Positions 18,707 through 35,950 of a stretch of DNA of 35,950 bases are shown here, one piece after another (positions within the stretch are counted from its first letter, which is position 1; the number at the start of each line of letters is the position of its first letter). Made by a program: the position numbers and the translations under genes. This DNA comes from an uncultured Lachnospiraceae bacterium (lineage in GTDB: Bacteria > Bacillota > Clostridia > Lachnospirales > Lachnospiraceae). Below the pieces are notes generated by a model. That model did not search any database. It saw nothing but the letters and a program-made list of their open reading frames with translations, and had not been told where the DNA came from. The stretch lies in NCBI GenBank assembly GCA_902792005.1, contig CADAXW010000016.1:1-35950 (forward strand), in the 5' to 3' direction.

Positions 18707-20131
18707 CTACATCAGCTCCGACAGACGTTTTTCAAAACGCTCCTTGCTGGTGACCTCCGGGATCTCCGTCTCATACTGTCCGCTGAAGCATGCGTGGCAG
18801 TAGCCCTTGTGTCCCACCAGCTCTGTAAGGGTGTTCAGTGGCAGATACCCAAGAGAGTCCGCGCCGATCATTTCCGCGATCTCCGAAAGGCTGTGATGAC
18901 ATGCCACCAGATTCTCCTTGGAATCGATGTCCGTACCATAGTAGCAGGGACTGATAAATGGCGGCGAGGAGATACGCATATGGATCTCCTTTGCTCCCGC
19001 TTCCCGCAGCAGCTTTACGATACGTCCGCTGGTGGTTCCCCGGACGATGGAGTCGTCCACCAGGATCACTCTCTTCCCTTCCACCGTGGACCGAACCGGG
19101 TTCAGCTTGATCCGAACGCCGCTGGTCCGCTCTTCCTGTGTGGGGGAGATAAATGTTCTGCCGATATATTTATTCTTGATCAGTCCGATGCCATAGGGGA
19201 TACCGGAATATCTGGAATAACCCAGGGCCGCATCCAGTCCGGAGTCCGGCACGCCAACCACCACATCCGCGATCACCGGATAGGTCCGGGCCAGGATCTC
19301 TCCTGCCTTCAGACGCGCACCGTGCACCGAAACACCGTCGATCACGGAGTCCGGTCTTGCAAAGTAGATATACTCGAAGATACAGGTGCTGCGTCGCTTC
19401 GTATTGCAGTGTCGTTTAAAGGTCTGCACACCCTCATCGGAGAAGACGATCAGCTCACCCGGCTCCACGTCACGGACGAATTTTGCACCTACTGCCTCCA
19501 GGGCGCAGGTTTCCGAAGCCGCCACGTAGGTACCGTCCTCCCGGAGCCCATAACAAAGAGGCCGGAAACCATGCGGATCCCGGGCCACGATCATTTTCGC
19601 GGCGGACATGAGTACGATGGAGTAAGCTCCCTCCAGATGATCCATGGTGGAAAGCACTGCTTCCTCGATGGACGGACTCTTCAGTCGCTCCCGCGTTACG
19701 ATATATGCGATGATCTCTGTATCCGAGGTGGAGTGGAAGATGGCTCCCGAAAGCTCCAGCTCGTTTCTCAGTGCGAAGGCATTGCTGATATTACCGTTGT
19801 GGGCAAGGGCCATTTTTCCCTTCTGATGATTTACCTCCATGGGCTGGCAGTTGCTGCGGTTATTTCCGCCGGTGGTACCGTAACGGACATGTCCCACGGC
19901 CATCTGTCCCTTGGGAAATACTTCCAGCTCCTCCGAAGTAAAAACGCTGCTGACCTGTCCCAGATCCTTATGAGAATGGAAGATCCCGTCCTCGTTCACA
20001 ACGATCCCGCAGCTCTCCTGTCCTCTGTGCTGGAGGGCGTACAGTCCGTAATATACATCCTTTGCAATGGGATATGCCTCCTCGGCATAAATACCTATGA
20101 TTCCACACTCTTCATGCAGCTTGCCTTCCAT
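18707..20131 (-). CDS. purF: amidophosphoribosyltransferase
   Basis: This 474-residue protein catalyses the first committed step of purine synthesis, transferring ammonia from glutamine to PRPP. A short propeptide (MEGKLHEE) precedes the nucleophile Cys9, which becomes the N-terminus, as in the Bacillus-type enzyme. The class II amidotransferase domain (ECGIIGIYA, YALQHRGQESCGI) is followed by a phosphoribosyltransferase domain with the PRPP loop VILVDDSIVRGTTSG. Cysteines in STCIFEYIYFARPDS and in the C-terminal YCHACFSG segment fit the 4Fe-4S cluster of this PurF class. GGAG lies upstream of the ATG. It lies 57 bases downstream of the ANTAR gene, with no terminator between. Confidence 0.96.
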   Translation of the reverse strand: MEGKLHEECGIIGIYAEEAYPIAKDVYYGLYALQHRGQESCGIVVNEDGIFHSHKDLGQVSSVFTSEELEVFPKGQMAVGHVRYGTTGGNNRSNCQPMEVNHQKGKMALAHNGNISNAFALRNELELSGAIFHSTSDTEIIAYIVTRERLKSPSIEEAVLSTMDHLEGAYSIVLMSAAKMIVARDPHGFRPLCYGLREDGTYVAASETCALEAVGAKFVRDVEPGELIVFSDEGVQTFKRHCNTKRRSTCIFEYIYFARPDSVIDGVSVHGARLKAGEILARTYPVIADVVVGVPDSGLDAALGYSRYSGIPYGIGLIKNKYIGRTFISPTQEERTSGVRIKLNPVRSTVEGKRVILVDDSIVRGTTSGRIVKLLREAGAKEIHMRISSPPFISPCYYGTDIDSKENLVACHHSLSEIAEMIGADSLGYLPLNTLTELVGHKGYCHACFSGQYETEIPEVTSKERFEKRLSELM

Positions 20132-20188
20132 GGCCTGCTCCTCCGTATCTCATAAAACTGATAATATAACTCTTTTCTCTGCTTCCGG

Positions 20189-20776
20189 TCACTCCCACCG
20201 GTCGATGATCTCCTCCGCAACGGCGCGTCTGGAGATGCAGCGGTCCATGGCCAGCTTTCCGATCCGGCTGTGGGCCTCCGCTTCGGTCAGATGCTCCTTT
20301 TCCACCAGGAGACACTTGGCCTGACTTACGATGCGGATCTCCTTCATCTTGTCCTCCATGGAAAGAAGCTTCTTCTCCGTATCGTGGAACTTATTCTGTA
20401 TGGCAATGAGATGCCGGATATTTCTGACCAGACCCCGGGCAGTCATGGGCTTGGCAAGCACCACAACTCCGTGGTCGATGACACGCTCCGTCACATCATC
20501 CGCAACCTCACCGGGACTGAGGATAATGATGCCTGAGGTATATCGTCCGCAGATATCCAGAACAAAATCCACGCCAAAATTATCCGGCAGCGGCGCATTT
20601 ACGATGATCACATCATAGTGCCGGTTCAGCAGCTCCTGGGCTGCCAGGGCCGCACTCTTCCGCACTTCGATGGTCGTGAAATGTCTGTCGGAGATATTCT
20701 TCTTCACAAATGTATTCAGTTGTTCCACTGCAGACACGATGAGGATCGAATACTGCCGATCTGTGATCTTTCCCAT
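20189..20776 (-). CDS. ANTAR-domain RNA-binding antiterminator with pseudo-receiver
   Basis: This encodes 195 residues. Residues 9-120 have a response-regulator fold, but the phospho-acceptor position reads VIIVNAPLP (Asn instead of Asp) and the acidic pair near the N-terminus is replaced (ILIVSAVEQ). Only the Ser of IILSP and the Lys of LAKPM remain. It is therefore probably not phosphorylated in the usual way. A coiled segment (about 120-135) leads into the ANTAR domain (about 137-190: QAKCLLVEKEHLTEAEAHSR, RCISRRAVAEEIID). In known cases that domain binds paired RNA hairpins with A1/G4 hexaloops and prevents terminator formation. The gene lies 33 bases after a glutamine-synthetase-like gene, and matching hairpins occur before gltB and gltD. 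Confidence 0.88.
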   Translation of the reverse strand: MGKITDRQYSILIVSAVEQLNTFVKKNISDRHFTTIEVRKSAALAAQELLNRHYDVIIVNAPLPDNFGVDFVLDICGRYTSGIIILSPGEVADDVTERVIDHGVVVLAKPMTARGLVRNIRHLIAIQNKFHDTEKKLLSMEDKMKEIRIVSQAKCLLVEKEHLTEAEAHSRIGKLAMDRCISRRAVAEEIIDRWE

Positions 20777-20809
20777 ATGTCACCTGCCAAACCGGTTATG
20801 AATCTCTGT

Positions 20810-21982
20810 CTAAACGATATAGCACTTCAGCAGACCCTCCGGGATCAGCTCCTTGATAAAGCTGCTGTCCGATGCTGCCTGAATGGCCTCTCTTCTGGAC
20901 TGGGGAAGCAGGATGCTCTCTGCATCCATCTCCTGCGGAAGCTCCAGCTTGTTCTCAATGCCGTACAGTCCGGCATGGATCAGCAGTGCGTACACCAGGT
21001 ACGGATTGCTCAGGGCATCCGGAGATCTGAGCTCCACCCGGGTATGCTCATGATGGGTGGAAATGTGCACCATTTCCGAACCGTCCACGCTGGACCAGTT
21101 TACACGGTCCGGTGCAGTTCCCGTTCCAAAGCGGGCATAGGAGCCATCCGCCGGATTGAGGAACAGAGTCATCTCACGGATCTTATCGATAATACCGGCT
21201 GCAGCATAACGGCAAAGATCATTTCCGTCATGATCCACAGCATAAATGTTGATGTGATAGCCGTTTCCCGGTGCATCCGGAAGCGGTACCGGTGAAAAAT
21301 CAGCAATGAGACCGTTTCTGTCTGCCACGGTCTGAACTACCATCTTATATGTAGTCATCTGATCCGCAGCCTTAAGCGGTCTTCCGAAATGGAAATCGAT
21401 CTCGTTCTGTCCGGGACCGCGCTCATGGTGGGAGCGCTCCGGTGTAAGACCCATCTGCTCAATGGTAAGGCAGATCTCACGGCGGATATTTTCGCCCCGA
21501 TCCAGAGGTGCGATATCCATATAGCCTGCCTGGTCGTAGGGGATCTTCGTCGGATTCCCTTCCTCATCCTTCTTGAAGAGGTAGAACTCCGAAGCGGAAC
21601 CGAAACGGAAGTCTACTCCTGCCTCATCCGCCTTCGTAACAGCCTCCTGCAGGATCCGGCGGGTGTCTGCCTCAAAGGGCTTTCCGTCCGGTGTATATAC
21701 ATCGCAGAACATGCGGACAACACGTCCGGAATCCGGACGCCAGGGCAGGATCGCCAGAGTGGACGGATCCGGGATCAGATACAGCCTTCCGCTTTCCGCA
21801 TTGGTAAAGCCGGCGATCTCTCCGGCGCCGATGCTGATGCCTTCATCAAAGGCCTTCTTCAGCTCTCCCGGCATAATGGATATATTCTTCTGAACGCCGT
21901 AGGCATCACGAAAGGCAAGACGGATAAACTTCGCATCCTCTTCCTCAATAAACTGCATTACTTCATCGGGTGTATATCGCAT
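20810..21982 (-). CDS. glutamine-synthetase-like protein with degraded active site
   Basis: This encodes 390 residues from ATG 21982, chosen because AAGGAGG lies immediately upstream; the frame extends to 22015 without support. The fold is GS type I throughout: beta-grasp start, SEFYLFKKDE, SHHERGPGQNEIDF (185-197), GNGYHINI, RVELRSPDALSNPYL (315-329). It is about 50 residues shorter than Bacillus GlnA (about 444). Several residues needed for catalysis are changed. The D50 loop (FDGSSI in the family) reads IGAGEI at 51-56. The first metal Glu of EPEF is Ala130. The flap Glu of GYEAP is missing (TGTAP, 287-291). The NRSxxxR(I/V)P arginines are absent (DGSEMVHIS, 300-308). It may be a sensor or a ligase of other specificity rather than a housekeeping synthetase. 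It has its own possible promoter and sits next to the ANTAR gene. Confidence 0.85.
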   Translation of the reverse strand: MRYTPDEVMQFIEEEDAKFIRLAFRDAYGVQKNISIMPGELKKAFDEGISIGAGEIAGFTNAESGRLYLIPDPSTLAILPWRPDSGRVVRMFCDVYTPDGKPFEADTRRILQEAVTKADEAGVDFRFGSASEFYLFKKDEEGNPTKIPYDQAGYMDIAPLDRGENIRREICLTIEQMGLTPERSHHERGPGQNEIDFHFGRPLKAADQMTTYKMVVQTVADRNGLIADFSPVPLPDAPGNGYHINIYAVDHDGNDLCRYAAAGIIDKIREMTLFLNPADGSYARFGTGTAPDRVNWSSVDGSEMVHISTHHEHTRVELRSPDALSNPYLVYALLIHAGLYGIENKLELPQEMDAESILLPQSRREAIQAASDSSFIKELIPEGLLKCYIV

Positions 21983-22017
21983 ACGTCCCTCCTTCATCTG
22001 TTTGGATTTCCTCAATC

Positions 22018-22046
22018 ATTATACGATTCATGATTCTCTGCCGCAA
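22018..22046 (-). promoter_or_regulatory. possible internal promoter before the GS-like/ANTAR genes
   Basis: On the minus strand a perfect TATAAT (22018-22023) has TTGCGG (22041-22046, 3 of 6) 17 bases upstream. It lies in the 77-base gap after pyrG, with about 30 bases from the predicted start to the GS-like ATG. It would allow GS-like, ANTAR, purF and perhaps carAB to be transcribed apart from gltD-pyrG. Confidence 0.4.
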
Positions 22047-22059
22047 CAGAAACGTTCCA

Positions 22060-25192
<3,133 letters not shown>

Positions 25193-25212
25193 GTTTTATT
25201 CCTCCTGAGTAT

Positions 25213-25257
25213 AAAAAAAGGCATTTCGAGTACGGAACTCGAAACGCCTTTGCTTCG
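25213..25257 (-). promoter_or_regulatory. gltD leader attenuator: intrinsic terminator with overlapping ANTAR-type hairpin
   Basis: Terminator: arms 25217-25230 and 25238-25251 (14 bp with one G-U), 7-base loop, then seven T on the minus strand. The sequence ends about 20 bases before the gltD start codon, so it would stop transcription before the gene. Competing hairpin: minus-strand CGAAGC-AAAGGC-GTTTCG (25240-25257), a 6-bp stem with hexaloop AAAGGC, A at position 1 and G at position 4. It uses the 5' arm of the terminator, so forming it precludes termination. This matches the P2 element of ANTAR targets as I know them. An upstream P1 with a canonical loop is not evident. Confidence 0.75.
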
Positions 25258-25304
25258 TATCATAATCCTATGCGCAGACTACCCGCCTGCATCTTTATGT
25301 TAGT

Positions 25305-25332
25305 AGTATACCACTTTCTTTTTGAAAGTCAA
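25305..25332 (-). promoter_or_regulatory. gltD promoter
   Basis: On the minus strand TTGACT (25327-25332), a 16-base spacer and TATACT (25305-25310). The spacer with its edges forms a perfect inverted repeat ACTTTC-AAAAA-GAAAGT. Nearly the same arrangement precedes gltB, suggesting a shared regulator acting between -35 and -10. Confidence 0.8.
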
Positions 25333-25368
25333 CAGTAAGATTTGTTAATTTTCAAAAGAGAAATGTAG

Positions 25369-28300
25369 TTATTCTTGTTTTTTCTGAGGTTGCAGTGTGC
25401 CCTGACTTGCATGGAAGGCGAAGGTTTCTGCCTGCTCGCGGCTCATACCCTGCTCCTCTCCCTGAGCGATCAGGTGCAGCAGCTTCTTATAGTCTGCCGG
25501 AATGATCTTCTTGAAGCTTCCGATGTAATGATCAAAGTCCTCCAGGATCCGCTGACCCTTCTTGGAACCCGTGCTCTCCACATGGCGCTCGATGATCCGC
25601 TTCAGCTCCTCCTTCTCATTCCGCTGCTCCACATGCTCCATCAGGACCAGTTCCTTGTTCAGGTTCTTATATAAGGTATTCTTCTCATCCAGGACATATG
25701 CGATACCGCCGCTCATGCCGGCTGCGAAGTTCTTGCCCGTGGGGCCCAGGATCACGGCACGTCCACCGGTCATATACTCACAGCCATGCTCGCCCACGCC
25801 CTCAACTACAGCTGTCACGCCGGAGTTTCGGATGCAGAAGCGCTCGCCTGCCATACCTGCGATGTAGGCCTCACCACTGGTGGCACCGTACAGCGCCACA
25901 TTTCCGATGATGATGTTTTCCTCCGCATCATAGGCAGCTTCCTTCGGTGCCCGAACGATCAGCTTACCGCCGGAAAGTCCCTTGCCGAAGTAGTCGTTGC
26001 TGTCGCCGGTCAGGCGAAGGGTCAGTCCCTTCGGGATAAATGCGCCGAAGCTCTGTCCGCCTGCGCCGGTGCACTCTACCTGAACCGTATCCTCCGGAAG
26101 TCCCTCCGGATTCTGTCTTGTGATCTCCGCACCCAGCAGGGTTCCGAAGGAGCGGTCGATGTTGCTGACCTCCAGAGAGATCCGGCTCTCCTTTCCCTTC
26201 CGGATGGACATCTGTACTGCCTTGCTGGCAAGCAGGACCTTCTCGTCCTTGGTATCCTCCAGATGGAAATCGTATGCCTTCTCAGCATGGAAGGTCTGCT
26301 CCTCACGGTCGAACTCGGAAAGATCTGCAAGGATCCGGTCCAGAAGCAGCTCCTCTGCTCTGCCGTTTTCCGAAAGGCCCTTCCGCTTCAGAAGATCCGT
26401 ACGTCCCACCATCTCGTCGATGCTGCGGACACCCAGCTTTGCCATGTATTCCCGAAGCTCTCTTGCGATGAATACCATAAAGTTCTCTACATATTCCGGC
26501 TTACCCGTAAACCGTGCACGAAGCTCCGGGTTCTGGGTTGCCACGCCCATGGGGCAGGTATCCTGATGGCAGACACGCATCATAACACAGCCCAGGGTTA
26601 CCAGCGGTGCTGTGGCAAAGCCGAACTCCTCAGCGCCCAGAAGGGCTGCGATGGCCACGTCACGTCCGCTCATCAGCTTACCGTCGGTCTCGATCACCAC
26701 CTGATTCCGAAGTCCGTTCAGAAGCAGGGTCTGGTGTGTCTCTGCAAGTCCCAGCTCCCAGGGAAGTCCTGCATTATGGATGGATGAAAGCGGTGCGGCA
26801 CCGGTTCCTCCGTCATAGCCTGAGATCAGAACAACCTGTGCACCGGCCTTGGCAACGCCGGCAGCAACGGTTCCGACTCCCGCCTCGGATACCAGCTTTA
26901 CTGAGATCCGGGCATTCTTATTTGCATTCTTTAAGTCGTAGATCAGCTCCGCCAGATCCTCGATGGAGTAGATATCATGGTGCGGCGGAGGCGAGATCAG
27001 AGAAACACCGGGGGTGGAATGTCTGGTCTTTGCGATCCAGGGATATACCTTCTTTCCGGGCAAATGTCCTCCCTCGCCGGGCTTTGCGCCCTGTGCCATC
27101 TTGATCTGGATCTCCTTTGCGCTGACCAGATACCTGCTTGTTACGCCAAACCGTCCGCTGGCCACCTGCTTGATGGCTGAGCTTCTGTCCTCTGCGGTTC
27201 CTGCGGAAGCAATTCTTTCATCACTCTCACCGCCCTCACCGGAGTTGGACTTTCCATGCAGCCGGTTCATGGCGATGGCAAGGCAGGTATGTGCCTCCTC
27301 GGAAATGGAGCCGTAGGACATGGCACCTGTCTTGAAGCGCTTTACGATCTCCTCCTCGCTCTCTACCTCTTCGAGAGGGATGCCCTCTGCAGGATAGTTG
27401 AAGTCCAGAAGGCTTCGGAGATAACCTGTCTCCTCTGCATCCACCATGGCAGTGAATTCCTTAAACTTATCATAGTCTCCGGTACGGGTGGAAAGCTGAA
27501 GCATATGGATGGTCCTGGGATCATATCTGTGATTTTCACCCTGGGCTCTTGCCTTATGCCGTCCCACTGCCGTAAGGGAAAGATCCGTGGGAAGTCCCAG
27601 AGGATCAAAGGCACGGCTGTGCTGTGCATCTGCCGATGCTGCGATATCGGAAAGGGTGATTCCGCCCACCCGGCTCACCGTACCGGTGAAGTATTTGTCG
27701 ATCACATCCTTGGAGATACCGATGGCTTCAAAGATCTTGCTGCCCTGGTAGGACTGGATCGTGGAGATACCCATCTTGGAAGCGATCTTCCGGATGCCGA
27801 AAAGCACGGCCCGGTCGTAATCATCCACTGCTGCGTAATAATCCTTCTCCAGCAGTCCGTCCTCTGTCAGCTCGCGAATGGTCTCATGGGCCAGATACGG
27901 GTTCACTGCGGAAGCACCATAGCCCAGAAGTGCTGCGAAATGATGCACCTCGCGGGGCTCGCCGGACTCCAGGATCAGAGACATGGCGGTACATTTCCGT
28001 GTGGTAACCAGATGCTGATGCACTGCGGCAACTGCCAGCAGGGACGGAAGGGCTACGTGGTTTTCGTCCACGCCGCGGTCCGAAAGGATCAGGATATTCG
28101 CGCCTTCGCGGTAAGCCTTGTCCACCTCAACAAAGAGGTGATCGATGACCCGCTCGATGGGAGTGCTCTTGTAGTAAAGGATGGAAACCTTTGCCACAGA
28201 GAAACCTTCCTTCTGCATATGCTCGATCTTCAGAATATCCAGATCCGTCAGGATGGGATTGTGGATCTTCAGCACATGACAGTTCTCCGGACGCTCTGCC

Positions 28301-29970
28301 AGAAGATTTCCGTTCTTCCCCAGGTATACGCTGCTGGTGGTTACGATCTTCTCACGTTCTGCATCGATGGGCGGGTTTGTTACCTGCGCGAACAGCTGCT
28401 TGAAATAGTAGAACAGGGGCTGGTACTCCTTGGAAAGGGCAGCGATGGGCGTATCCACACCCATGGCTCCGATCTGCTCGATACCACGCTCCGCCATGCT
28501 GCGGATGCCCTCATGGTAATTCTCATAGGTATAACCGAAGGCCTTCTGCAGACGTGTGCGCTCCTCTCTTGTATAGGACATGACCTTCTTGTTCGGGACC
28601 TTCAGATCATGCAGCTCCAGCAGGTTGGCATCCAGCCACTCACCGTAGGGCTCCTTGCCTGCATACTTCTCCTTTAATTCTTCATCGGAATAGATCCGTC
28701 CTTCCTTGGTGTCAACCAGAAGCATCTTTCCGGGATGCAGACGTTCCTTCCGCAGGATATGACGCTCATCCAGAGGCAGAACTCCTACTTCAGAGGAAAG
28801 GATCAGCCGGCCGTCATCCATGACCACATAGCGGGAAGGACGAAGACCGTTCCTGTCCAGGATCGCTCCCATCTGATCTCCGTCGGAGAACAGGATGGAT
28901 GCAGGTCCGTCCCAGGGCTCCATCATGGTTGCATAGTACTGATAGAAATCCCTCTCCTCCTGAGTCAGTGTATCGTTATGAGCCCAGGGCTCCGGGATGG
29001 CGATCATGGCTGCAAGAGGAAGCGGCATACCGCTCATCATCAGGAATTCCAGTGTGTTATCCAGCATGGCGGAATCGGATCCGCTGGAGGAAATGACAGG
29101 CAGGACCTTGGTCATATCCTCGGAGGACAGAATGTTTGTTGCCATGGTCTCCTCACGGGCCAGCATTTTGTCCGCATTTCCCTTGATGGTATTGATCTCT
29201 CCGTTATGAACCATGAGGCGGTTCGGGTGAGCCCGGTTCCAGCTGGGATTGGTATTCGTGGAAAAACGGGAGTGAACCATGGCGATGGCAGATGTATAAT
29301 CCGGATCCATCAGGTCCGTGAAAAATGTACGCAGCTGTCCTACCAGGAACATACCCTTATATACGATGGTCCTGCAGGACATGGAGGGCACATAGGTCTC
29401 CACATTACTCTGCTCGAACTCACGGCGGATCACATAGAGTCTCCGGTCATAATCCAGATCTGTTGCAAGATCCTCTCTTCTTCCCAGGAAGGCCTGCAGG
29501 ATCACGGGCATGCAGTCACGGGCCTTGCTTCCCAGAACCTCCGGGGCGATGGGAACCTTACGCCATGCCAGTACCGGCGCACCTTCCTTTGCCGCGATGG
29601 TCTCGAACATTTTCCTTGCCTGGCGGATCTTCAGATCACTCTGGGGAAAGAAGAACATACCTACGCCGTACTGCCGTTCTCCCGGCAGGGTCACGCCCTG
29701 CTCTGCCAGCTTCTTTACGAAAAACTTATGAGGGATCTGGGTCAGGATGCCCACACCGTCACCGGTCTTTCCTTCTGCATCCTTTCCTGCCCGGTGCTCC
29801 AGACGCTCTACGATCTTCAGGGCGTCATCCACCAGTCCATGGCTCTTTTCTCCCTTTACATGAATGATGGCTCCGATACCGCAGTTATCATGCTCAAAGG
29901 CCGCATCATAAAGACCATTTTTCCGAAGCTCTTCATTTCTTCGAAGTTCTTCATTTCTCGTTTCCAGCAT
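25369..29970 (-). CDS. gltB: glutamate synthase (NADPH) large subunit
   Basis: This 1533-residue protein has the full GltB layout. It has a propeptide before the class II amidotransferase nucleophile Cys30 (HDNCGIGAI), a central domain, and an FMN-binding synthase barrel with GEGGESDERIA and KPGEGGHLPGKKV. The 3Fe-4S cysteines lie near 1127-1142 (MMRVCHQDTCPMGVATQN), and the C-terminal GXGXG beta-helix from about 1270 contains GAGGQSFGAF. It converts glutamine and 2-oxoglutarate to two glutamates. The propeptide is about 29 residues and contains a duplicated NEELR unit from an 18-bp direct repeat (29924-29941, 29942-29959). GGAGG lies 8 bases before the ATG. It has its own promoter and leader and is followed by gltD's promoter rather than a joint operon gap. 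Confidence 0.97.
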   Translation of the reverse strand: MLETRNEELRRNEELRKNGLYDAAFEHDNCGIGAIIHVKGEKSHGLVDDALKIVERLEHRAGKDAEGKTGDGVGILTQIPHKFFVKKLAEQGVTLPGERQYGVGMFFFPQSDLKIRQARKMFETIAAKEGAPVLAWRKVPIAPEVLGSKARDCMPVILQAFLGRREDLATDLDYDRRLYVIRREFEQSNVETYVPSMSCRTIVYKGMFLVGQLRTFFTDLMDPDYTSAIAMVHSRFSTNTNPSWNRAHPNRLMVHNGEINTIKGNADKMLAREETMATNILSSEDMTKVLPVISSSGSDSAMLDNTLEFLMMSGMPLPLAAMIAIPEPWAHNDTLTQEERDFYQYYATMMEPWDGPASILFSDGDQMGAILDRNGLRPSRYVVMDDGRLILSSEVGVLPLDERHILRKERLHPGKMLLVDTKEGRIYSDEELKEKYAGKEPYGEWLDANLLELHDLKVPNKKVMSYTREERTRLQKAFGYTYENYHEGIRSMAERGIEQIGAMGVDTPIAALSKEYQPLFYYFKQLFAQVTNPPIDAEREKIVTTSSVYLGKNGNLLAERPENCHVLKIHNPILTDLDILKIEHMQKEGFSVAKVSILYYKSTPIERVIDHLFVEVDKAYREGANILILSDRGVDENHVALPSLLAVAAVHQHLVTTRKCTAMSLILESGEPREVHHFAALLGYGASAVNPYLAHETIRELTEDGLLEKDYYAAVDDYDRAVLFGIRKIASKMGISTIQSYQGSKIFEAIGISKDVIDKYFTGTVSRVGGITLSDIAASADAQHSRAFDPLGLPTDLSLTAVGRHKARAQGENHRYDPRTIHMLQLSTRTGDYDKFKEFTAMVDAEETGYLRSLLDFNYPAEGIPLEEVESEEEIVKRFKTGAMSYGSISEEAHTCLAIAMNRLHGKSNSGEGGESDERIASAGTAEDRSSAIKQVASGRFGVTSRYLVSAKEIQIKMAQGAKPGEGGHLPGKKVYPWIAKTRHSTPGVSLISPPPHHDIYSIEDLAELIYDLKNANKNARISVKLVSEAGVGTVAAGVAKAGAQVVLISGYDGGTGAAPLSSIHNAGLPWELGLAETHQTLLLNGLRNQVVIETDGKLMSGRDVAIAALLGAEEFGFATAPLVTLGCVMMRVCHQDTCPMGVATQNPELRARFTGKPEYVENFMVFIARELREYMAKLGVRSIDEMVGRTDLLKRKGLSENGRAEELLLDRILADLSEFDREEQTFHAEKAYDFHLEDTKDEKVLLASKAVQMSIRKGKESRISLEVSNIDRSFGTLLGAEITRQNPEGLPEDTVQVECTGAGGQSFGAFIPKGLTLRLTGDSNDYFGKGLSGGKLIVRAPKEAAYDAEENIIIGNVALYGATSGEAYIAGMAGERFCIRNSGVTAVVEGVGEHGCEYMTGGRAVILGPTGKNFAAGMSGGIAYVLDEKNTLYKNLNKELVLMEHVEQRNEKEELKRIIERHVESTGSKKGQRILEDFDHYIGSFKKIIPADYKKLLHLIAQGEEQGMSREQAETFAFHASQGTLQPQKKQE

Positions 29971-29998
29971 AACATTTTCCTCCGCTTTATAAGCAAAT

Positions 29999-30042
29999 AA
30001 GCAAGGGCGTCTCAGGTAAAAACCCGAAACGCCCTTGCTTCG
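29999..30042 (-). promoter_or_regulatory. gltB leader attenuator: terminator with overlapping ANTAR-type hairpin
   Basis: Terminator: arms 29999-30016 and 30023-30040, 18 bp with two wobble pairs and a 6-base loop, followed by a T-rich stretch on the minus strand. Competing hairpin: minus-strand CGAAGC-AAGGGC-GTTTCG (30025-30042). It has the identical 6-bp stem to the gltD leader and a hexaloop AAGGGC with A1 and G4. The overlap with the terminator 5' arm is the same. The loop differs from gltD at one position that keeps A1/G4, as expected of a selected RNA motif. It lies within 45 bases of the promoter, leaving little room for a P1 hairpin. Confidence 0.75.
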
Positions 30043-30067
30043 CTCTGATATATATCCATTTGTAGAA

Positions 30068-30095
30068 AGTATATCACTTTATTTTTAAAAGTCAA
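30068..30095 (-). promoter_or_regulatory. gltB promoter
   Basis: On the minus strand TTGACT (30090-30095), 16 bases, TATACT (30068-30073). Flanks and spacer match the gltD promoter closely (GTTGACTTT, AAAAA, AAAGTG, TATACT in both), with an inverted repeat ACTTT...AAAGT in the spacer. It sits only 37 bases after the oppC stop. Confidence 0.8.
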
Positions 30096-30131
30096 CAGGA
30101 AATTTATTTAATTTATTAAGCATTATCCCTG

Positions 30132-31205
30132 TTATTCCGTTGCTTTCTTCATACCCTCTGCTACCAGATGGCTTGCAACCATCAGCATGATCATGATCGC
30201 TGCGGAAGGAAGCAGCTTATAGGGATGCAGAAGTACATTCTGGAAGCCGTCGGTAAGCATGGTTCCCAGGGAACAGGTTCCCGGGGGCATACCCAGACCC
30301 ACGAAGCTGAGGAAGGCTTCCAGGAATACCGCTGCCGGAATGCTCAGCATGATCTGTGTTACCAGCTTTCCTGTGATGTTCGGCACGATCTCACGGAAGA
30401 TGATATGCCGGTGGCCGGCTCCCATGGTCCTTGCCGCCTGGATAAACTCCAGCTCCTTCACCTTCATAACCTCGGCTCTGGCGATCCGGCTCATATCGAT
30501 CCATCCGGAAAGCATCAGGGCGAAAATGATGGAGCCCATACCCGGCTGCAGCACAAGCATCAGCAATGTCACCACCACCAGGGTGGGGATACTTCCTATG
30601 ACATCGATGATCCGCTGCATGATGATATCCGTCATCCCCCCGAAGTATCCGGAGATCACTCCGTAATTCATACCGATGAGCAGGTTGATCACCGTTGCCA
30701 CCAGGGCAATGATGAGGGATATCCGGAGTCCCATGAAACAGCGGGAGAACATATCACGTCCCAGATTATCCGTTCCGAAGAGATAGTTTTCCTCTACGCC
30801 CAGCTCCTCATACCGGTTCACCTTTACGGCCCCGCTGCTCTTCCGCATCATTTCGGACCCGTCCAGGAATCCCATGGAGGAAAAAAGCGGAACTCGGGGC
30901 GCCATATTTGCGCGCTCCAACATTTGCTCATCATAGGAATGGCCTGAGAGATAGGGGCCGATGATGCTGAGAAGCACCAGGATCGCCAGCAGAACCAGTC
31001 CCACCACTGCAGACTTCTGAGCGAAGAACCGTTTCAGAGTTTCATGCTTCACGCCCGTGACTGCCTCCGCCGATGTATCCTCCTTCATCTCGGGAGGAGC
31101 AAGGACGAAGTCTTCATCTACGGGAACATACGCTTCTATAACATCTGCACCATCAGCCGCTGCCACAGCGGTAGCCGCACGTGCCTTCTTTGTATGATCT
31201 TTCAC
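30132..31205 (-). CDS. oppC: oligopeptide ABC transporter permease, OppC-type
   Basis: This encodes 357 residues starting at GTG, with AAAGGAGG 7 bases upstream. An unusually Ala-rich cytoplasmic N-terminus (about 60 residues, ARAATAVAAADGADV) leads to a first membrane helix (GLVLLAILVLLSIIGPYL). A loop with the family motif GTDNLGRDMFSRCFMG follows. Then come five helices with the EAA-type coupling segment (ARTMGAGHRHIIFREIVPN). It forms the membrane channel with OppB. It is last in the operon, 15 bases after oppB, with no clear terminator before the gltB promoter. Confidence 0.92.
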   Translation of the reverse strand: MKDHTKKARAATAVAAADGADVIEAYVPVDEDFVLAPPEMKEDTSAEAVTGVKHETLKRFFAQKSAVVGLVLLAILVLLSIIGPYLSGHSYDEQMLERANMAPRVPLFSSMGFLDGSEMMRKSSGAVKVNRYEELGVEENYLFGTDNLGRDMFSRCFMGLRISLIIALVATVINLLIGMNYGVISGYFGGMTDIIMQRIIDVIGSIPTLVVVTLLMLVLQPGMGSIIFALMLSGWIDMSRIARAEVMKVKELEFIQAARTMGAGHRHIIFREIVPNITGKLVTQIMLSIPAAVFLEAFLSFVGLGMPPGTCSLGTMLTDGFQNVLLHPYKLLPSAAIMIMLMVASHLVAEGMKKATE

Positions 31206-31220
31206 AGCGTCTCCTCCTTT

Positions 31221-32156
31221 CTACTCGGCTTTTCCACCCAGACGAACTCTGGGATCAACAATACAGTACAGAATATCCAGGATCAGCATGACTACGATGT
31301 ACAGCGCCGAATAGACGAAGCTGAGTGCGATAACAACACTGTAGTCATTGCTGCTGATGGCATTGGTCAGCAGAGCGCCAACACCGGGGATCGAGAACAT
31401 CTGCTCGATCACAAGAGAGCCGGTCAGCAGTCCCACCAGAAGTCCCGCCATGACCGTGATCACGGGGATCAGGGAATTCCGCAGGATATATCTTATGATA
31501 ATGGTGCTGTTCTTCAGTCCCTGACACCGGGCAAGCATGACGTAATCCGACTTCATGACATCCTGTGCCTCTGCCCTGGTAAATCTTGCGATCACCGCCA
31601 TGACCATGAGACTCAGGGCCATGATGGGCATCACCGTGGTAACCCCCGGCGACCGGTAATCGTAAAGCATGGGGAAGAGCTCCCACTTGTAACCCAGCAC
31701 ATAGGAGAAGAACATGGCAAACAGGTAGGACGGTACTGCAACTCCCAGAAGGGAAAGGATGCTGTACAGAGCCCTGAGCAGCTTGTTCTTAAAGAAGGCT
31801 GCCAGAAGTCCCAGGGTAAGTCCCGCCAGTGTTCCGAAGATCAGACTGAGGAAGCCGATCTTCAGTGTCACCGGGAACCGGCTCACCAGCAGCTCCGTGA
31901 TGGGTGTGTTCACGGAAATGGAATAGCTGACACCCAGATCACCCTTCAGCATATTTCCCACATACTGGAAAAACTGAACGATGATGGGCTTATCCAGACC
32001 GTACTTTTCCTTCAGCATTGCAACCTGTTCCGCTGAAAGCTTCTGGTCATTGAAGGGAGATCCCGGCATAAACTGAAGCAAAAGGAAGAGGATCAGCAGG
32101 ATCACCAGCAATGTTACTATGGATATGATGATTCGTTTGATCAGATATCTGGCCAT
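31221..32156 (-). CDS. oppB: oligopeptide ABC transporter permease, OppB-type
   Basis: This encodes 311 residues from ATG 32156, which overlaps the oppA stop by one base (TGATG) and has AAGGAGG 7 bases upstream; a GTG one codon earlier is the alternative. It has the six-helix layout of OppB with the N-terminal YLIKRIIISIVTLLVILLIL helix, and the periplasm-side segment (DQKLSAEQVAMLKEKYGLDK) and YSISVNTPITELLVSRFPVT typical of the family. The EAA-type coupling loop is ARCQGLKNSTIIIRYILRNSL. It partners with OppC. Confidence 0.93.
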   Translation of the reverse strand: MARYLIKRIIISIVTLLVILLILFLLLQFMPGSPFNDQKLSAEQVAMLKEKYGLDKPIIVQFFQYVGNMLKGDLGVSYSISVNTPITELLVSRFPVTLKIGFLSLIFGTLAGLTLGLLAAFFKNKLLRALYSILSLLGVAVPSYLFAMFFSYVLGYKWELFPMLYDYRSPGVTTVMPIMALSLMVMAVIARFTRAEAQDVMKSDYVMLARCQGLKNSTIIIRYILRNSLIPVITVMAGLLVGLLTGSLVIEQMFSIPGVGALLTNAISSNDYSVVIALSFVYSALYIVVMLILDILYCIVDPRVRLGGKAE

Positions 32157-33850
32157 CACTTCACCTCCTTTTCCAGTCCTTCACAGACAACCTGGACACC
32201 GGTAGGTGCAAACATCAGATTTTTCACATTTGGTTTGATCAGGACATCCAGTCCGTTGGTGTAGATCGGGATCTGAGCCATATCGTTCATCAGGATGTCC
32301 TCGGCCTTTTCCAGAAGTTCATCCCGTTCCTGCCCTTCCGCCAGTACCAGCCCCTGATATACCTTTTCGAAATCCGGATTCATATACTTGTTTCCCTCTG
32401 CCTGCTCTGCGGAATACCGTCCGTAAAACGAGGTGGGATCCGTATAATCCACAGCCCAGCCTCCGTAGATCAGATCATAGCCTTCTCCCTCCGTACCGTG
32501 CTGCAGCCAGTCCTTTGTGCTCCAGACCACGATATTGATGGTAAGCCCCGGAAGTGCCTTCTCCATCTCCTGCTTCAGAGCCTCACATATGGACTGCGCA
32601 TTGCTATAGCAGCAAAGGCTAAGTTCCACTGAGCTTTTTCCGATCTCCTTTAAGCCCTGCTCCCAGTATTCCTTTGCCTTTGCAGGATCATAAGAGGTCA
32701 GGTCCTTATACTTGTCAGGATCCTCCGCGATATCCTTTCCGGAGGCTTCATAATAATACCCCGGCGGATTGATCCGGGTGAGACTTTGGGCTCCGGCTCG
32801 GACCACATTTTTCACGATACTGTCCCTGTCAATGCTCTTTGCGAGAGCGAGCCTCAGGTTCCGATTCTGCAGCGGAGAATCCGACCCAAAATTCATATCC
32901 AGAAATGCTACGCTTGCCTGGGAGAATACCGTAAGCTCCGGGTCACCCTCTGCCAGTTCAACAGTGGCACCGGTCACACGGATCACATCCATTTCCCCGG
33001 CTTCGTAGCACATCATTGCCTGCTGCGCATCCGTGATGATCTGGATATTGATCCCCTCCAGGGTAACCTGATCTGCATCATAATAATTTTCATTCTTTGA
33101 CATGTGGATCTGCGTCGCAAGGGGCTCATACCGGTCCACCTTAAAGGCGCCGCTGGAAAGAATGGTATCCGCACTTGTGCAGTAATCGTCGCCGCAGGAC
33201 TGGACAAACGACTGGCTGCAGGGGCCCAGGGTGGGGGACGCTACCAATGCGGTTATGAAGGGACACGGTTTTTGAAGCTCGATCACAAATGTATCATGAT
33301 CCGGTGCCGACACCCCGAGTTCACTGGGCGGAAGGGTTCCTTCCGATACCTTGTCCGCATTATTGACCATACAGCAGTCCGTGATCAGATAAACGGATCC
33401 GCTTTTCGTATCCGGATCTGCAAGTCTCCGGAAGGCATAAACAAAATCCTCTGCAGTGAGCGCACTTCCGTCGCTCCATTTCAGATTCTTTTTCAGATGA
33501 AATGTGACGGTGAGCTTATCCTCGGATACCTCATAGCTCTCGGCACAGCCGGGAACCAGCTTACGGTCCTTATCGTACTTGTACAGGGTGCTCACAAAGA
33601 AGCTCACTACATTTCCGGCATTCGTGTCCGTTACAAGCTGCGGGTCCACGGTTACCGGGGAAGCTGCCAGATGATAGTTCAGATCCGATCGTTCCGATCC
33701 GTCCTTTCCGCAGCCGCTGAGAGCGGTCAGAAGGAACAGGAGACTGAGGACCACGCAAAGAAGCTTCCTGCCCTTTCCTGTTTTCTCTATTCTTTTCTCT
33801 ATTCTTTTCTCTATTCTTTTCTCTGTTCTTTTCTCTGTTCTTCTCCTCAT
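32156..33850 (-). CDS. oppA: oligopeptide-binding lipoprotein (SBP family 5), with repeat-built n-region
   Basis: This encodes 564 residues, extracellular solute-binding protein family 5 (OppA/DppA). It has the motifs DPQLVTDTNAGNVVSFF, VTFHLKKNLKWSDGSALTAEDFVYAF and DFEKVYQGLV near the end. The lipobox is LTALSGC (Cys47). The n-region before the hydrophobic core is about 29 residues, far longer than usual, and consists of (E-K-R-I/T) units from five perfect-length 12-bp repeats. The start is well supported: AAGGAGG lies 7 bases before the ATG and the start overlaps the oppF stop (ATGA), so the repeat is translated. The protein would capture peptides at the cell surface for OppBCDF. Confidence 0.93.
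   Translation of the reverse strand: MRRRTEKRTEKRIEKRIEKRIEKTGKGRKLLCVVLSLLFLLTALSGCGKDGSERSDLNYHLAASPVTVDPQLVTDTNAGNVVSFFVSTLYKYDKDRKLVPGCAESYEVSEDKLTVTFHLKKNLKWSDGSALTAEDFVYAFRRLADPDTKSGSVYLITDCCMVNNADKVSEGTLPPSELGVSAPDHDTFVIELQKPCPFITALVASPTLGPCSQSFVQSCGDDYCTSADTILSSGAFKVDRYEPLATQIHMSKNENYYDADQVTLEGINIQIITDAQQAMMCYEAGEMDVIRVTGATVELAEGDPELTVFSQASVAFLDMNFGSDSPLQNRNLRLALAKSIDRDSIVKNVVRAGAQSLTRINPPGYYYEASGKDIAEDPDKYKDLTSYDPAKAKEYWEQGLKEIGKSSVELSLCCYSNAQSICEALKQEMEKALPGLTINIVVWSTKDWLQHGTEGEGYDLIYGGWAVDYTDPTSFYGRYSAEQAEGNKYMNPDFEKVYQGLVLAEGQERDELLEKAEDILMNDMAQIPIYTNGLDVLIKPNVKNLMFAPTGVQVVCEGLEKEVK
33781..33840. repeat. five tandem 12-bp repeats within the oppA signal peptide
   Basis: Three copies of TTTTCTCTATTC (33781-33792, 33793-33804, 33805-33816) and two of TTTTCTCTGTTC (33817-33828, 33829-33840). 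On the minus strand each adds four residues, Glu-Lys-Arg-Ile or Glu-Lys-Arg-Thr. Twelve is a multiple of three, so copy-number change would lengthen or shorten the n-region without breaking the frame. Confidence 0.95.
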
Positions 33851-34800
33851 GCCTGCACCTCCTTCTTGGACATGACCTCCTGGGTCCAGTCCTCAAATTC
33901 GCTGTCCGTGCAGAGGACACTGTGGGTTTTCGTCACGTCATGAAGGGTTCCCTGGGCATAATCGATACCCGAGTTCGCATAGTCGTAGACCTTTCCCTTC
34001 TCCGCCTGGATGATGGGATTCATCCGCGGGATGGCGGAAAGAAGCCCCCTGGTGTAGGGATGGATGGGATACTCAAATATCTCCTCCGACTCTCCCACCT
34101 CCAGAAGATAGCCCAGATGCAGAACACCGATCCGGTCGGACAGGAAGCGCACCATGGAAAGGTCATGGGAAATAAACAGGAATGAGGTTCCCACCTCCTC
34201 CTTGATCCGTCCCAGCATATTTACCACCTGCGCCTGCACGGAGGCGTCCAGCGCGGCGATGCACTCATCTGCGATGATGAGACTTGGATTTCCCACCAGT
34301 GCCCGGGCGATCCCGATCCTCTGCCGCTGGCCTCCGGAGAAGCTGGAGGGATAACGATTACTGTATTCCACGGGGATCCCCACACGATCCAGGGCATCCT
34401 TCACCAGCTGATTCCGCTCCTCTTCGTTCTTCCCGATCTTCTGGATCACCAGAGCCTCCCGGAGGATCTGACCGATCTGCTTCCTCGGGTTCAGGGAGGA
34501 CATGGGATCCTGGAAGATCATCTGGATCTCCTTCATTTTCTCGTTATATTCCTTCCGGCTCCGGATTCCCGTGAGCTCGGTGCCGCGGAACTTTATACTG
34601 CCGCTGGTAGCCTTGTTCAGGCCGATGATACATTTTCCAATAGTTGATTTTCCACTTCCGGATTCTCCCACCAGACCGAAGGTTTCACCCTCATTGATGG
34701 TAAATGTGATATGCTCCGACGCCTTGATCCGCTTTCCCGCACTGTCGAAATACATGCAGAGATCATCTACGGAAAGCAGTTCCTTCTTACTCTTTGACAT
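33847..34800 (-). CDS. oppF: oligopeptide ABC transporter ATP-binding protein, OppF-type
   Basis: This 317-residue ATPase has Walker A GESGSGKST, the Q-loop IFQDPMSSLNPR, signature SGGQRQRIGIARAL and Walker B LIIADECIAALD. In this last motif the usual Glu-Pro is Glu-Cys-Ile, and the His switch is FISHDLSMV. The C-terminal extension of the Opp/Dpp type is present (HPYTRGLLSAIP). It powers transport with OppD. Its start overlaps oppD by 14 bases and its end overlaps oppA by 4, indicating translational coupling. Confidence 0.93.
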   Translation of the reverse strand: MSKSKKELLSVDDLCMYFDSAGKRIKASEHITFTINEGETFGLVGESGSGKSTIGKCIIGLNKATSGSIKFRGTELTGIRSRKEYNEKMKEIQMIFQDPMSSLNPRKQIGQILREALVIQKIGKNEEERNQLVKDALDRVGIPVEYSNRYPSSFSGGQRQRIGIARALVGNPSLIIADECIAALDASVQAQVVNMLGRIKEEVGTSFLFISHDLSMVRFLSDRIGVLHLGYLLEVGESEEIFEYPIHPYTRGLLSAIPRMNPIIQAEKGKVYDYANSGIDYAQGTLHDVTKTHSVLCTDSEFEDWTQEVMSKKEVQA

Positions 34801-35863
34801 AGTCCCTGCCCTCCTTCTTCATTCGTTCGATCCGGCCTGCCAGCTCCTCCGGCATCTCTACCTTCGGTGCTCTCGGGTCCGCCAGCCAGGTGGCTGCATA
34901 ATGGGTACCGGATAATTTGAATAACGGGGGTTCTGCCTTGAAATCCACTGCCAGGGCGTAAGGATTTCTGGGCGCAAATGCGTCTCCCACGATCTCCAGC
35001 GCAAGATTCGGCGGAGTTCCCGGGATGGAATAGAGTTCTCCCTTTTCATCTGAAACCTCGGGAACCGCAGATAAAAGGCCCCAGGTATAGGGATGGCGGG
35101 GATCATAGAAAATATCGAAGATGGTGCCGTACTCGATGATCTTGCCGGCATACATAACCCCTACGTAATCGGCGATCTTTGCAACGACACCCAGATTATG
35201 GGTAATGAAAATAACGGACAGGCCTCTGGCCCTCTGAATACTCTGGATCAGCTCAAGAATACGGTCCTGAATGGTCACATCCAGCGCCGTGGTGGGCTCA
35301 TCACAGATCAGTACCTTCGGATTTCCGGACAGGGCGATGGCGATCACTACTCTCTGCCGCATACCGCCGGACAGCTGATGGGGATACTGCCCCATGGTCC
35401 GCTCCGGATCCGTGATACCTACCTCGCGAAGCAGCTGCACGCCCTCCGCATAGGCTTCCTTTTTTGCTACATTTTTATGGCTCCGGATAGCCATGATCAT
35501 CTGGGATCCGATGGTCATCGTCGGATTGAGCGACGTCATGGGATCCTGAAATACCATGGCGATCTTGGAACCGTTGATGGTCTTCTGCCGCCGGGCAGGC
35601 TTCACCTTGAGAAGATCCACGGTCTCCTCATCATCATGAAACAGGATCTCCCCCGACTCGATCACAGCATTATCCGCCAGAATCCCCATAATGGCCTTAA
35701 CGCTGATACTCTTTCCGCAGCCGGACTCACCCACCAGCGCCAGCACCTCATTTTCCAGGAGCTGATAGTTCACCCCACGGAGTGCATGCACATCCCCGGT
35801 GGGCATTTTAAACGTGATCCTGAGGTCCTTCACCTCGATCACAGGTCTAGCTTTATCTGCCAT
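34787..35863 (-). CDS. oppD: oligopeptide ABC transporter ATP-binding protein, OppD-type
   Basis: This encodes 358 residues from ATG 35863 ([16 protein letters not shown]), chosen because a G-rich ribosome binding site (GGGGGG) lies 5-7 bases upstream; the frame extends to 35902 without support. Walker A is GESGCGKS, the Q-loop [10 protein letters not shown], the signature [15 protein letters not shown], Walker [13 protein letters not shown] and the His switch FITHNLGVV. The C-terminal PFAM oligo_HPY-like end ([24 protein letters not shown]) lacks the usual run of cysteines that binds a 4Fe-4S cluster in some OppD proteins. It is the first gene of the operon. Confidence 0.93.
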
Positions 35864-35908
35864 ACATTTCCCCCCAAAAATAGACAAACAACAAAACACC
35901 ACAATTCG

Positions 35909-35917
35909 ATTTTACCA
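35909..35917 (-). promoter_or_regulatory. possible extended -10 promoter of the opp operon
   Basis: On the minus strand TGGTAAAAT gives a TGn-extended -10 (TAAAAT at 35909-35914). No -35 is visible; that position is occupied by the palindromic repeat at 35923-35950. The leader would be about 40 bases. Confidence 0.4.
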
Positions 35918-35922
35918 TAAAT

Positions 35923-35950
35923 GTGACAACGGGGACAGTCCCTCTTGTCA
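35923..35950. repeat. palindromic repeat element, copy 2, cut by the window edge
   Basis: The arms around the central A at 35937 pair over 13 positions with one mismatch (35930/35944) and one G-U, ending in TGACAA/TTGTCA. It shares TGACAAnGGGGACAGTCCC with copy 1 at 2061-2091. Here it lies just upstream of the opp promoter rather than between convergent genes. It may extend beyond the window. Confidence 0.7.

Follow-up and report, generated by a model that had tools for sequence, protein, structure and literature searches.

In the eut leaders, ANTAR proteins act on two hairpins with six-nucleotide loops (hexaloops), P1 and P2, joined by a linker of 5–12 nt (PMC3369931), and a curation of actinobacterial dual stems gives a P1–P2 linker of 2–25 nt (PMC8164766). 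EutV binding to isolated P1 and to isolated P2 does not differ significantly, and one hexaloop now serves as the redefined minimal motif for binding; Walshe et al. (2022) report that the ANTAR dimer binds one hexaloop at a time, propose that P1 is a recruitment hairpin needed for antitermination, and name the role of single hexaloops as an open question (PMC8934654). Here, we describe the leaders of the glutamate synthase genes gltB and gltD in a 35,950-nt stretch of an uncultured Lachnospiraceae genome (contig CADAXW010000016.1, assembly GCA_902792005.1), referred to throughout as the window. We are fairly confident, from the sequence evidence, that both leaders belong to a variant form of ANTAR antitermination that uses a single hexaloop, often close to the promoter, and is run by an ANTAR protein with a pseudo-receiver domain.

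ANTAR control of glutamate synthase is not itself new, since Ramesh et al. (2012, PMC3369931) predicted ANTAR-type leaders with terminators in Desulfotomaculum reducens and D. acetoxidans, on glutamate synthase among other nitrogen genes, and the ANTAR regulator NitR of Clostridium saccharobutylicum uses antitermination to induce glutamine synthetase and glutamate synthase (GS/GOGAT) genes when nitrogen is limiting (Stutz et al. 2007, as cited in PMC6316151). A "nitR" of C. acetobutylicum is named, and an ANTAR protein suggested for the ammonia-assimilation cluster of C. thermocellum, in PMC4676874. Searches of an open-licence library listed no report of single-hairpin or Lachnospiraceae ANTAR antitermination; PMC8934654 does raise the single-hairpin possibility. 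The newly seen part is the one-hairpin, often promoter-proximal architecture and the regulon that surrounds it.

Mutually exclusive hairpins and terminators in the gltB and gltD leaders

Both genes lie on the minus strand, as do all leader features described here, and each has a separate promoter and leader. The two sigma-70-type promoters both read TTGACT-16-TATACT (gltB 30068–30095, gltD 25305–25332) and are kept in the alignment of closest relatives. Downstream, the predicted antiterminator hairpin P2 has a 6-bp stem and a hexaloop with A at the first and G at the fourth position (A1/G4) in both leaders: CGAAGC-AAGGGC-GTTTCG for gltB (30025–30042; hairpin scan, covariation) and CGAAGC-AAAGGC-GTTTCG for gltD (25240–25257; covariation). 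The loop and 3' arm of P2 form the 5' arm of an intrinsic terminator in each leader (scan, folding, covariation), with a 19-bp stem and weak U-tract for gltB (29999–30040) and a 15-bp stem for gltD (25217–25251), and the P2 and terminator pairings are mutually exclusive. These two stems are the longest of 20 terminator-like sites in 20000–35950, the next having 8 pairs. In ViennaRNA, either P2 folds at −4.9 kcal/mol and the terminators at −34.2 (gltB) and −21.4 kcal/mol (gltD), a gap of 16–29 kcal/mol; as the terminators are far more stable, P2 needs help to win.

The first-pass annotation had described this CGAAGC-hexaloop-GTTTCG hairpin with its A1/G4 loops as competing with a terminator in both leaders, which coordinates, pairing and folding confirm. 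It also rightly noted that a canonical first hairpin is not visible: no P1 with an A1/G4 hexaloop was found upstream of P2 in either window leader. The 25 nt between the −10 box and P2 of gltB hold no P1, and the 20 nt 5' of this P2 fold into nothing. The corresponding distance in gltD is 47 nt, where an extra hairpin at the P1 place (GCAGGC-GGGTA-GTCTGC, 25274–25290) has a 5-nt loop. In the closest relatives the gltD promoter and the P2-terminator element are conserved and the stretch between them ranges from 13 to 47 nt; the corresponding leader of one relative (L009) has the same promoter 13 nt from P2, and the hairpin is absent. A search against Rfam gave no match at gathering score in the window, nor any on 24900–30400 at E up to 1.

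Conservation and covariation of the element

Leaders of gltB were gathered from 80 named GltD loci, 150 family genomes (119 with matched gltB) and further fetched stretches, giving 189 leaders of which 173 were distinct and long enough (two leaders below 60 nt were left out of this count). All hairpins with a hexaloop, a stem of 4 bp or more and an overlapping terminator were then counted by loop class. The A1/G4 class appeared in 39 of the 173 leaders and any other class in at most 7; 20 dinucleotide shuffles gave 0–3 and the opposite strand 4.

For covariation, 44 of 47 elements were aligned at P2, three hairpins at other places being dropped. Because an element had to show A1/G4 and at least 4 P2 pairs to enter the set, the percentage paired is inflated and only pair variety counts. 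Five of the six P2 pairs change on both sides and the closing C-G is constant, while loop positions A1, A2 and G4 are invariant (A1 and G4 having been selected for). Double-sided changes fill 67 cells of the P2 stem, compared with 19 in shuffles. A terminator alignment of 31 of the 44 elements, picked by eye for alignable terminators, gave 95 such cells versus 27 in shuffles, hence the terminator covaries as strongly as P2.

Ordinary terminators could produce a similar picture if an A-rich 5' flank and a GC-rich stem yielded AANGGC, with P2 as a functionless by-product. The loop letters do pair with the U-tract, as in a bidirectional terminator, and several terminators match the covariance model described below on both strands. 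The 5' arm of P2, however, is unpaired in the terminator model and yet changes in step with the 3' arm (selection acted on the presence of the inner four pairs, not on their variety), and the opposite strand of the 173 leaders is poor in A1/G4 elements. Furthermore, among 10 matches found with laxer filters in genomes without an ANTAR gene, only two are A1/G4 hexaloop elements at the matched place, both in an 81%-complete genome (G137). We consider this explanation very unlikely.

A predicted nitrogen regulon

A pattern search of the window's own genome, allowing up to 3 mismatches, gave 6 real versus 10 control matches, with exact matches only in the two leaders. Because this did not beat the control, we used a covariance model of the P2-terminator element, R1, built on the 31-element alignment. 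In the same genome R1 detected gltD (top match, E 6e-9, gltD being part of the training set), gltB, the ammonium transporter gene amtB on contig C21 (E 1.6e-7; Pfam) and two sites on contig C40, besides weaker matches. The two C40 sites are the weaker members of the predicted regulon. One (C40:7177) precedes an ABC ATPase (Pfam ABC_tran, TOBE_2), which we take to be PotA-like, and has no strong promoter close by; the other (C40:2796) precedes a small protein resembling the Fer2_4 protein of another locus (L303), followed by an FAD-type oxidoreductase. At matches on C35 and C5 no hexaloop element was detected. A further weak match (G000:C13:100407–100451, locus L221, 30.8 bits) lies just before a 333-aa open reading frame.

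Across the 150 family genomes, 123 match R1 at E up to 0.01. From 144 matches 102 were kept, leaving out opposite-strand, duplicate-locus and weaker ones; all 102 are A1/G4, which is not independent evidence since R1 was built on such loops. The loci read out individually were mostly the best-scoring ones, not a random draw. A downstream open reading frame was present for 101 of the 102, with proteins assigned by BLAST clusters and Pfam run on 20 representatives, and about 87 of the 101 products belong to glutamine, glutamate or ammonium metabolism. These include 37 glutamine synthetases (type III in two of three tested), 19 AsnB or PurF amidotransferases, 12 ammonium transporters or P-II proteins, 7 GltB, 6 PyrG, 3 CarA, and one each of GltD, GuaA and glutamate dehydrogenase; 14 are mixed others.

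At two loci (L022:5304–5417 and L299) a single gene is preceded by tandem attenuators, both of which have a separate hexaloop and terminator. Rfam searches of 20 fetched loci gave a single match, beside an element and not on it. That match is a Clostridiales-1 RNA (RF01699) at L255:11018–11182, with a type III glutamine synthetase gene on one side and the amtB element on the other. Its candidacy as a sequestering RNA was dropped, as it is multicopy, occurs also in ANTAR-less genomes (G030, G087) and showed no such hexaloop in the L255 copy. Of the 150 family genomes, 82 contain a Clostridiales-1 RNA match, and in some the number reaches 17 or more.

Position of the hairpin relative to the promoter

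Among 101 distinct R1 hits with 130 nt of upstream sequence, 85 have a sigma-70 promoter with 9 or more of 12 matches. The −10 box ends 7–17 nt before P2 in 70 of the 101, compared with 0–4 in 20 shuffles, and these 70 promoter-proximal elements stem from 50 Lachnospiraceae genomes, one per genus. Pooling R1 hits with the gltB and gltD leaders gave 139 distinct elements, 84 of which have a −10 box ending 17 nt or less before P2. Transcription starts some 6–8 nt behind the −10 box, hence in the predicted transcripts of these 84 no more than about 11 nt would precede P2, a stretch too short to hold a P1 hairpin and linker. The other elements comprise 7 in which a further A1/G4 hexaloop separates promoter and P2, 32 longer ones that lack it, and 16 without a strong promoter. 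Apart from an A preceding P2, the short 5' leader showed no second conserved motif.

Both window leaders fall among the 32 longer elements, and the amtB leader of the same genome is promoter-proximal (TTGACA-17-TATAAT, 11 nt to P2). The gltB and gltD leaders are therefore not the clearest single-hairpin cases, as many relatives and the genome's own amtB have the hairpin right after the promoter. The suggestion in the first-pass annotation that they may be a single-hairpin variant thus gains broader support, from 84 of 139 elements without room for P1.

These distances also bear on a canonical dual-hairpin mechanism, in which P1 is degenerate or transcripts start upstream of the predicted promoters. 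All three characterised systems compared in PMC3369931 have two hairpins, and 7 of the 39 longer-leader elements have a second A1/G4 hexaloop, versus at most 1 for other loop classes (in L022, which is among the seven, this hexaloop belongs to the P2 of a tandem element). In these seven the first hexaloop begins 5–11 nt after the −10 box, at the same 5'-end place, and lies 23–49 nt from P2, outside the 5–12 nt of eut; a single one (23 nt) is within the 2–25 nt of the actinobacterial curation, and the window leaders, having no P1, offer no linker to compare. The gltD hairpin at 25290–25274 does occupy the P1 place, yet the L009 leader manages the same promoter without it, the sequence upstream of the gltB P2 is unfolded, and the 84 elements have no room downstream of a strong promoter. 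From a class sample of 245 genomes we read 29 of the best loci, 3 belonging to the family; 26 had an A1/G4 element and three had no such element at the place. The −10 box lies 10–17 nt before P2 in 14 of these 26, and four (L331, L332, L338, L344) have a further upstream A1/G4 hexaloop, as a dual-hairpin mechanism would predict. Overall, we judge that mechanism unlikely for the window leaders, and prefer the single-hexaloop reading.

The promoter spacers themselves contain inverted repeats: ACTTTC-A5-GAAAGT in gltD (25329–25313), ACTTT..AAAGT in gltB (30092–30076) and CAGAT-A5-ATCTG in amtB (L214, upstream of 1501). Spacer repeat arms of at least 5 occur in 24 of 125 regulon promoters, compared with a mean of 9.2 (maximum 17) in 50 mononucleotide shuffles, with the L022 promoter counted twice. 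A second, DNA-level regulator acting at these repeats is possible.

Co-occurrence with ANTAR genes and the ANTAR protein

An ANTAR gene is present in 131 of the 150 family genomes. R1 matches in 118 of these 131 versus 5 of the 19 ANTAR-less genomes (Fisher 8e-9, relatedness ignored), and at E up to 1e-4 in 70 of 131 versus 0 of 19. The class sample gave matches in 55 of 124 ANTAR-bearing versus 7 of 121 ANTAR-less genomes, and outside the family in 49 of 115 versus 7 of 121 (relatedness again ignored). The window's ANTAR gene (20189–20776, minus strand; Pfam, alignment, predicted structure) is the sole one found in its genome, an assembly that is 92% complete.

The protein it encodes scores 51.6 bits against PF03861 (cut-off 27.3), and its AlphaFold model (mean predicted local distance difference test score, pLDDT, 90) has RNA-bound EutV (6ww6) as best PDB match (E 6.4e-12, template modelling score, TM, 0.76). 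In an alignment of 59 proteins, window included, EutV hexaloop contacts are kept at K149 (58/59), E160 (58/59) and M172 (59/59), and every protein has a ring residue at EutV position 164 (His in 36, including the window protein, Phe in 16 and Tyr in 7). At the phosphoacceptor place of the pseudo-receiver domain the window protein has Asn60, and only 1 of the 59 has Asp. As the phosphoacceptor Asp is absent from the receiver domain, phosphorylation is unlikely to be the signal. Near glutamine synthetase genes (L008–L087, L118–L143) two kinds of ANTAR protein were seen, one window-like (about 195 aa) and one of about 180 aa that adjoins a glutamine synthetase only about 35–40% identical to the window's.

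The element might instead be a true attenuator or 5'-terminal control element read by an RNA-binding protein or factor other than the local ANTAR protein. Such a factor would suit the 5'-end position, which is unusual for ANTAR targets, and the several contact residues that differ from EutV, and ANTAR binding of these leaders is itself a prediction. The A1/G4 hexaloop is nonetheless a known ANTAR signature, and its co-occurrence with ANTAR genes is strong in two samples. Moreover, just one ANTAR match was found in each of 128 of the 131 family genomes with an ANTAR gene, and at many fetched loci it lies close to glutamine synthetase. We therefore give this possibility little credence compared with control by the ANTAR protein.

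Gene neighbourhood

The gltB gene (large subunit, 25369–29970; Pfam GATase_2, Glu_syn_central, Glu_synthase, GXGXG) is followed by gltD (small subunit, 23708–25192; Pfam, relatives). The latter opens a minus-strand run gltD-pyrG-glnA-ANTAR-purF-carA-carB (25192–14267) with gaps of 14–124 nt, comprising pyrG (CTP synthase, 22060–23670, 37 nt after gltD), glnA (glutamine synthetase, 20810–22015), the ANTAR gene and purF (amidophosphoribosyltransferase, 18707–20131), all three enzymes by Pfam, and carA and carB, named from their translations. The first-pass annotation had placed an ANTAR gene 4.4 kb downstream of the gltD promoter; its start was found at about 4.5 kb. On the minus strand from gltD to carB there is only one terminator-like match, weak and inside the ANTAR gene, hence transcription from the gltD promoter may extend through the ANTAR gene. 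A promoter-like match (9/12) lies between ANTAR and purF. The grouping of glutamine-making and glutamine-using enzymes round an ANTAR regulator suggests autoregulation.

Directly upstream of the gltB promoter, on the same strand, are oligopeptide-type ABC transporter genes (35902–30132, named from translations). The genome comprises 2.3 Mb in 102 contigs, and its nearest named relatives are metagenome-assembled genomes labelled Eubacterium sp. or Lachnospiraceae, the closest from deer rumen.

Proposed mechanism and its standing

By default, the nascent RNA would fold into the terminator and transcription would stop before gltB or gltD. P2 could form first, because the 3' arm of the terminator is made later. 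An active ANTAR protein would then grip the P2 hexaloop as it leaves RNA polymerase, with G4 (by analogy with EutV) against the ring residue at EutV position 164, here His, and Met at 172 as a plug. Held in this way, P2 would keep its loop and 3' arm from the terminator and delay refolding until the polymerase is past the U-tract, so that the genes are read. As its gene lies in the run behind the gltD leader, the ANTAR protein may boost its own synthesis, and it would also serve amtB and perhaps a few other genes of the genome. One hexaloop would suffice, unlike in EutV targets, where P1 is proposed to bring in the protein early enough (PMC8934654). In many relatives the hexaloop would lie within a few nt of the predicted mRNA 5' end, and there it may manage without P1, provided that polymerase moves slowly or pauses close to the promoter. 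Nitrogen or glutamine status is the probable signal, conveyed by a partner protein and not by phosphorylation.

Several observations weigh against this model. In eutP, deletion of P1 abolished induction and P1–P2 spacing mattered (PMC3369931), hence one hexaloop was insufficient there. The window promoters, 25 and 47 nt upstream, leave space for a non-canonical P1, and the gltB terminator has a poor U-tract (ATTTGCTTAT). EutV contacts R142, K147, R168, N173, R175 and R177 are mostly changed, and position 164 is Tyr in only 7 of 59 proteins. Thirteen of the 131 ANTAR-bearing family genomes have no R1 match, and with laxer filters 7 of the 19 ANTAR-less ones do match. Finally, the expectation in the first-pass annotation that orthologous leaders share the A1/G4 loop had a mixed outcome: 134 of 173 distinct gltB leaders lack the element, and 123 of 150 family genomes carry it somewhere, commonly on other nitrogen genes.

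Antitermination control of both glutamate synthase genes by the local ANTAR protein, as predicted in that annotation, appears the best-supported reading in view of the loop class, the covariation of both stems, ANTAR co-occurrence, the nitrogen regulon and the EutV-like predicted protein. The neighbouring ANTAR protein very probably switches gltB and gltD on through the predicted hairpin. We lean slightly towards a broader proposal, that ANTAR antitermination in Clostridia, above all Lachnospiraceae, commonly works on one hexaloop at the extreme mRNA 5' end. Position would there replace the P1 recruitment hairpin (for example, if polymerase took up the ANTAR protein while initiating or while paused close to the promoter), and much of the glutamine/ammonium economy would be run by a single pseudo-receiver ANTAR protein.

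If so, gut and rumen Lachnospiraceae gain a nitrogen regulon under one RNA-binding protein, covering glutamine synthetase, GOGAT, AsnB, PurF, PyrG, CarA, Amt and P-II, with each genome having its own combination of these genes. With so many natural attenuators that pair a single hexaloop with a terminator, the reason why two hairpins are needed elsewhere becomes directly testable.

Comparison with known systems

In AmiR/AmiC and NasT/NasS a partner protein controls the ANTAR protein (NasS-NasT, PMC3795266), and the receiver of AmiR is likewise a pseudo-receiver (PMC8934654); the AmiR target differs in having two hexaloops (PMC3369931), and no partner gene was recognised here. The Desulfotomaculum regulons resemble ours in their glutamate synthase and nitrogen genes. 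They differ in having been found with a dual-hairpin model, by which single-hairpin leaders would be passed over. EutV/EutW, which controls the eut genes of Enterococcus faecalis, is alike in pairing an ANTAR protein with an A1/G4 hexaloop hairpin that excludes an intrinsic terminator, and RNA-bound EutV is the structure closest to the window model (PMC3369931, PMC8934654). The eut system needs two hexaloops 5–12 nt apart and a phosphorylated receiver, whereas the present system has a single hexaloop, in many cases at the predicted 5' end of the mRNA, and lacks the phosphoacceptor Asp that an EutV-type response regulator carries. Compared with the dual-hairpin target type (Ramesh et al. 2012), the window leaders have the A1/G4 P2 and its exclusion of the terminator, and lack P1 and the linker. 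NitR is likewise an ANTAR regulator tied to GS/GOGAT, with an antisense RNA also involved in its case. In the window, the ANTAR gene (20776–20189) lies directly after the glutamine synthetase gene (22015–20810), and nitR, too, reportedly adjoins ammonium-assimilation genes.

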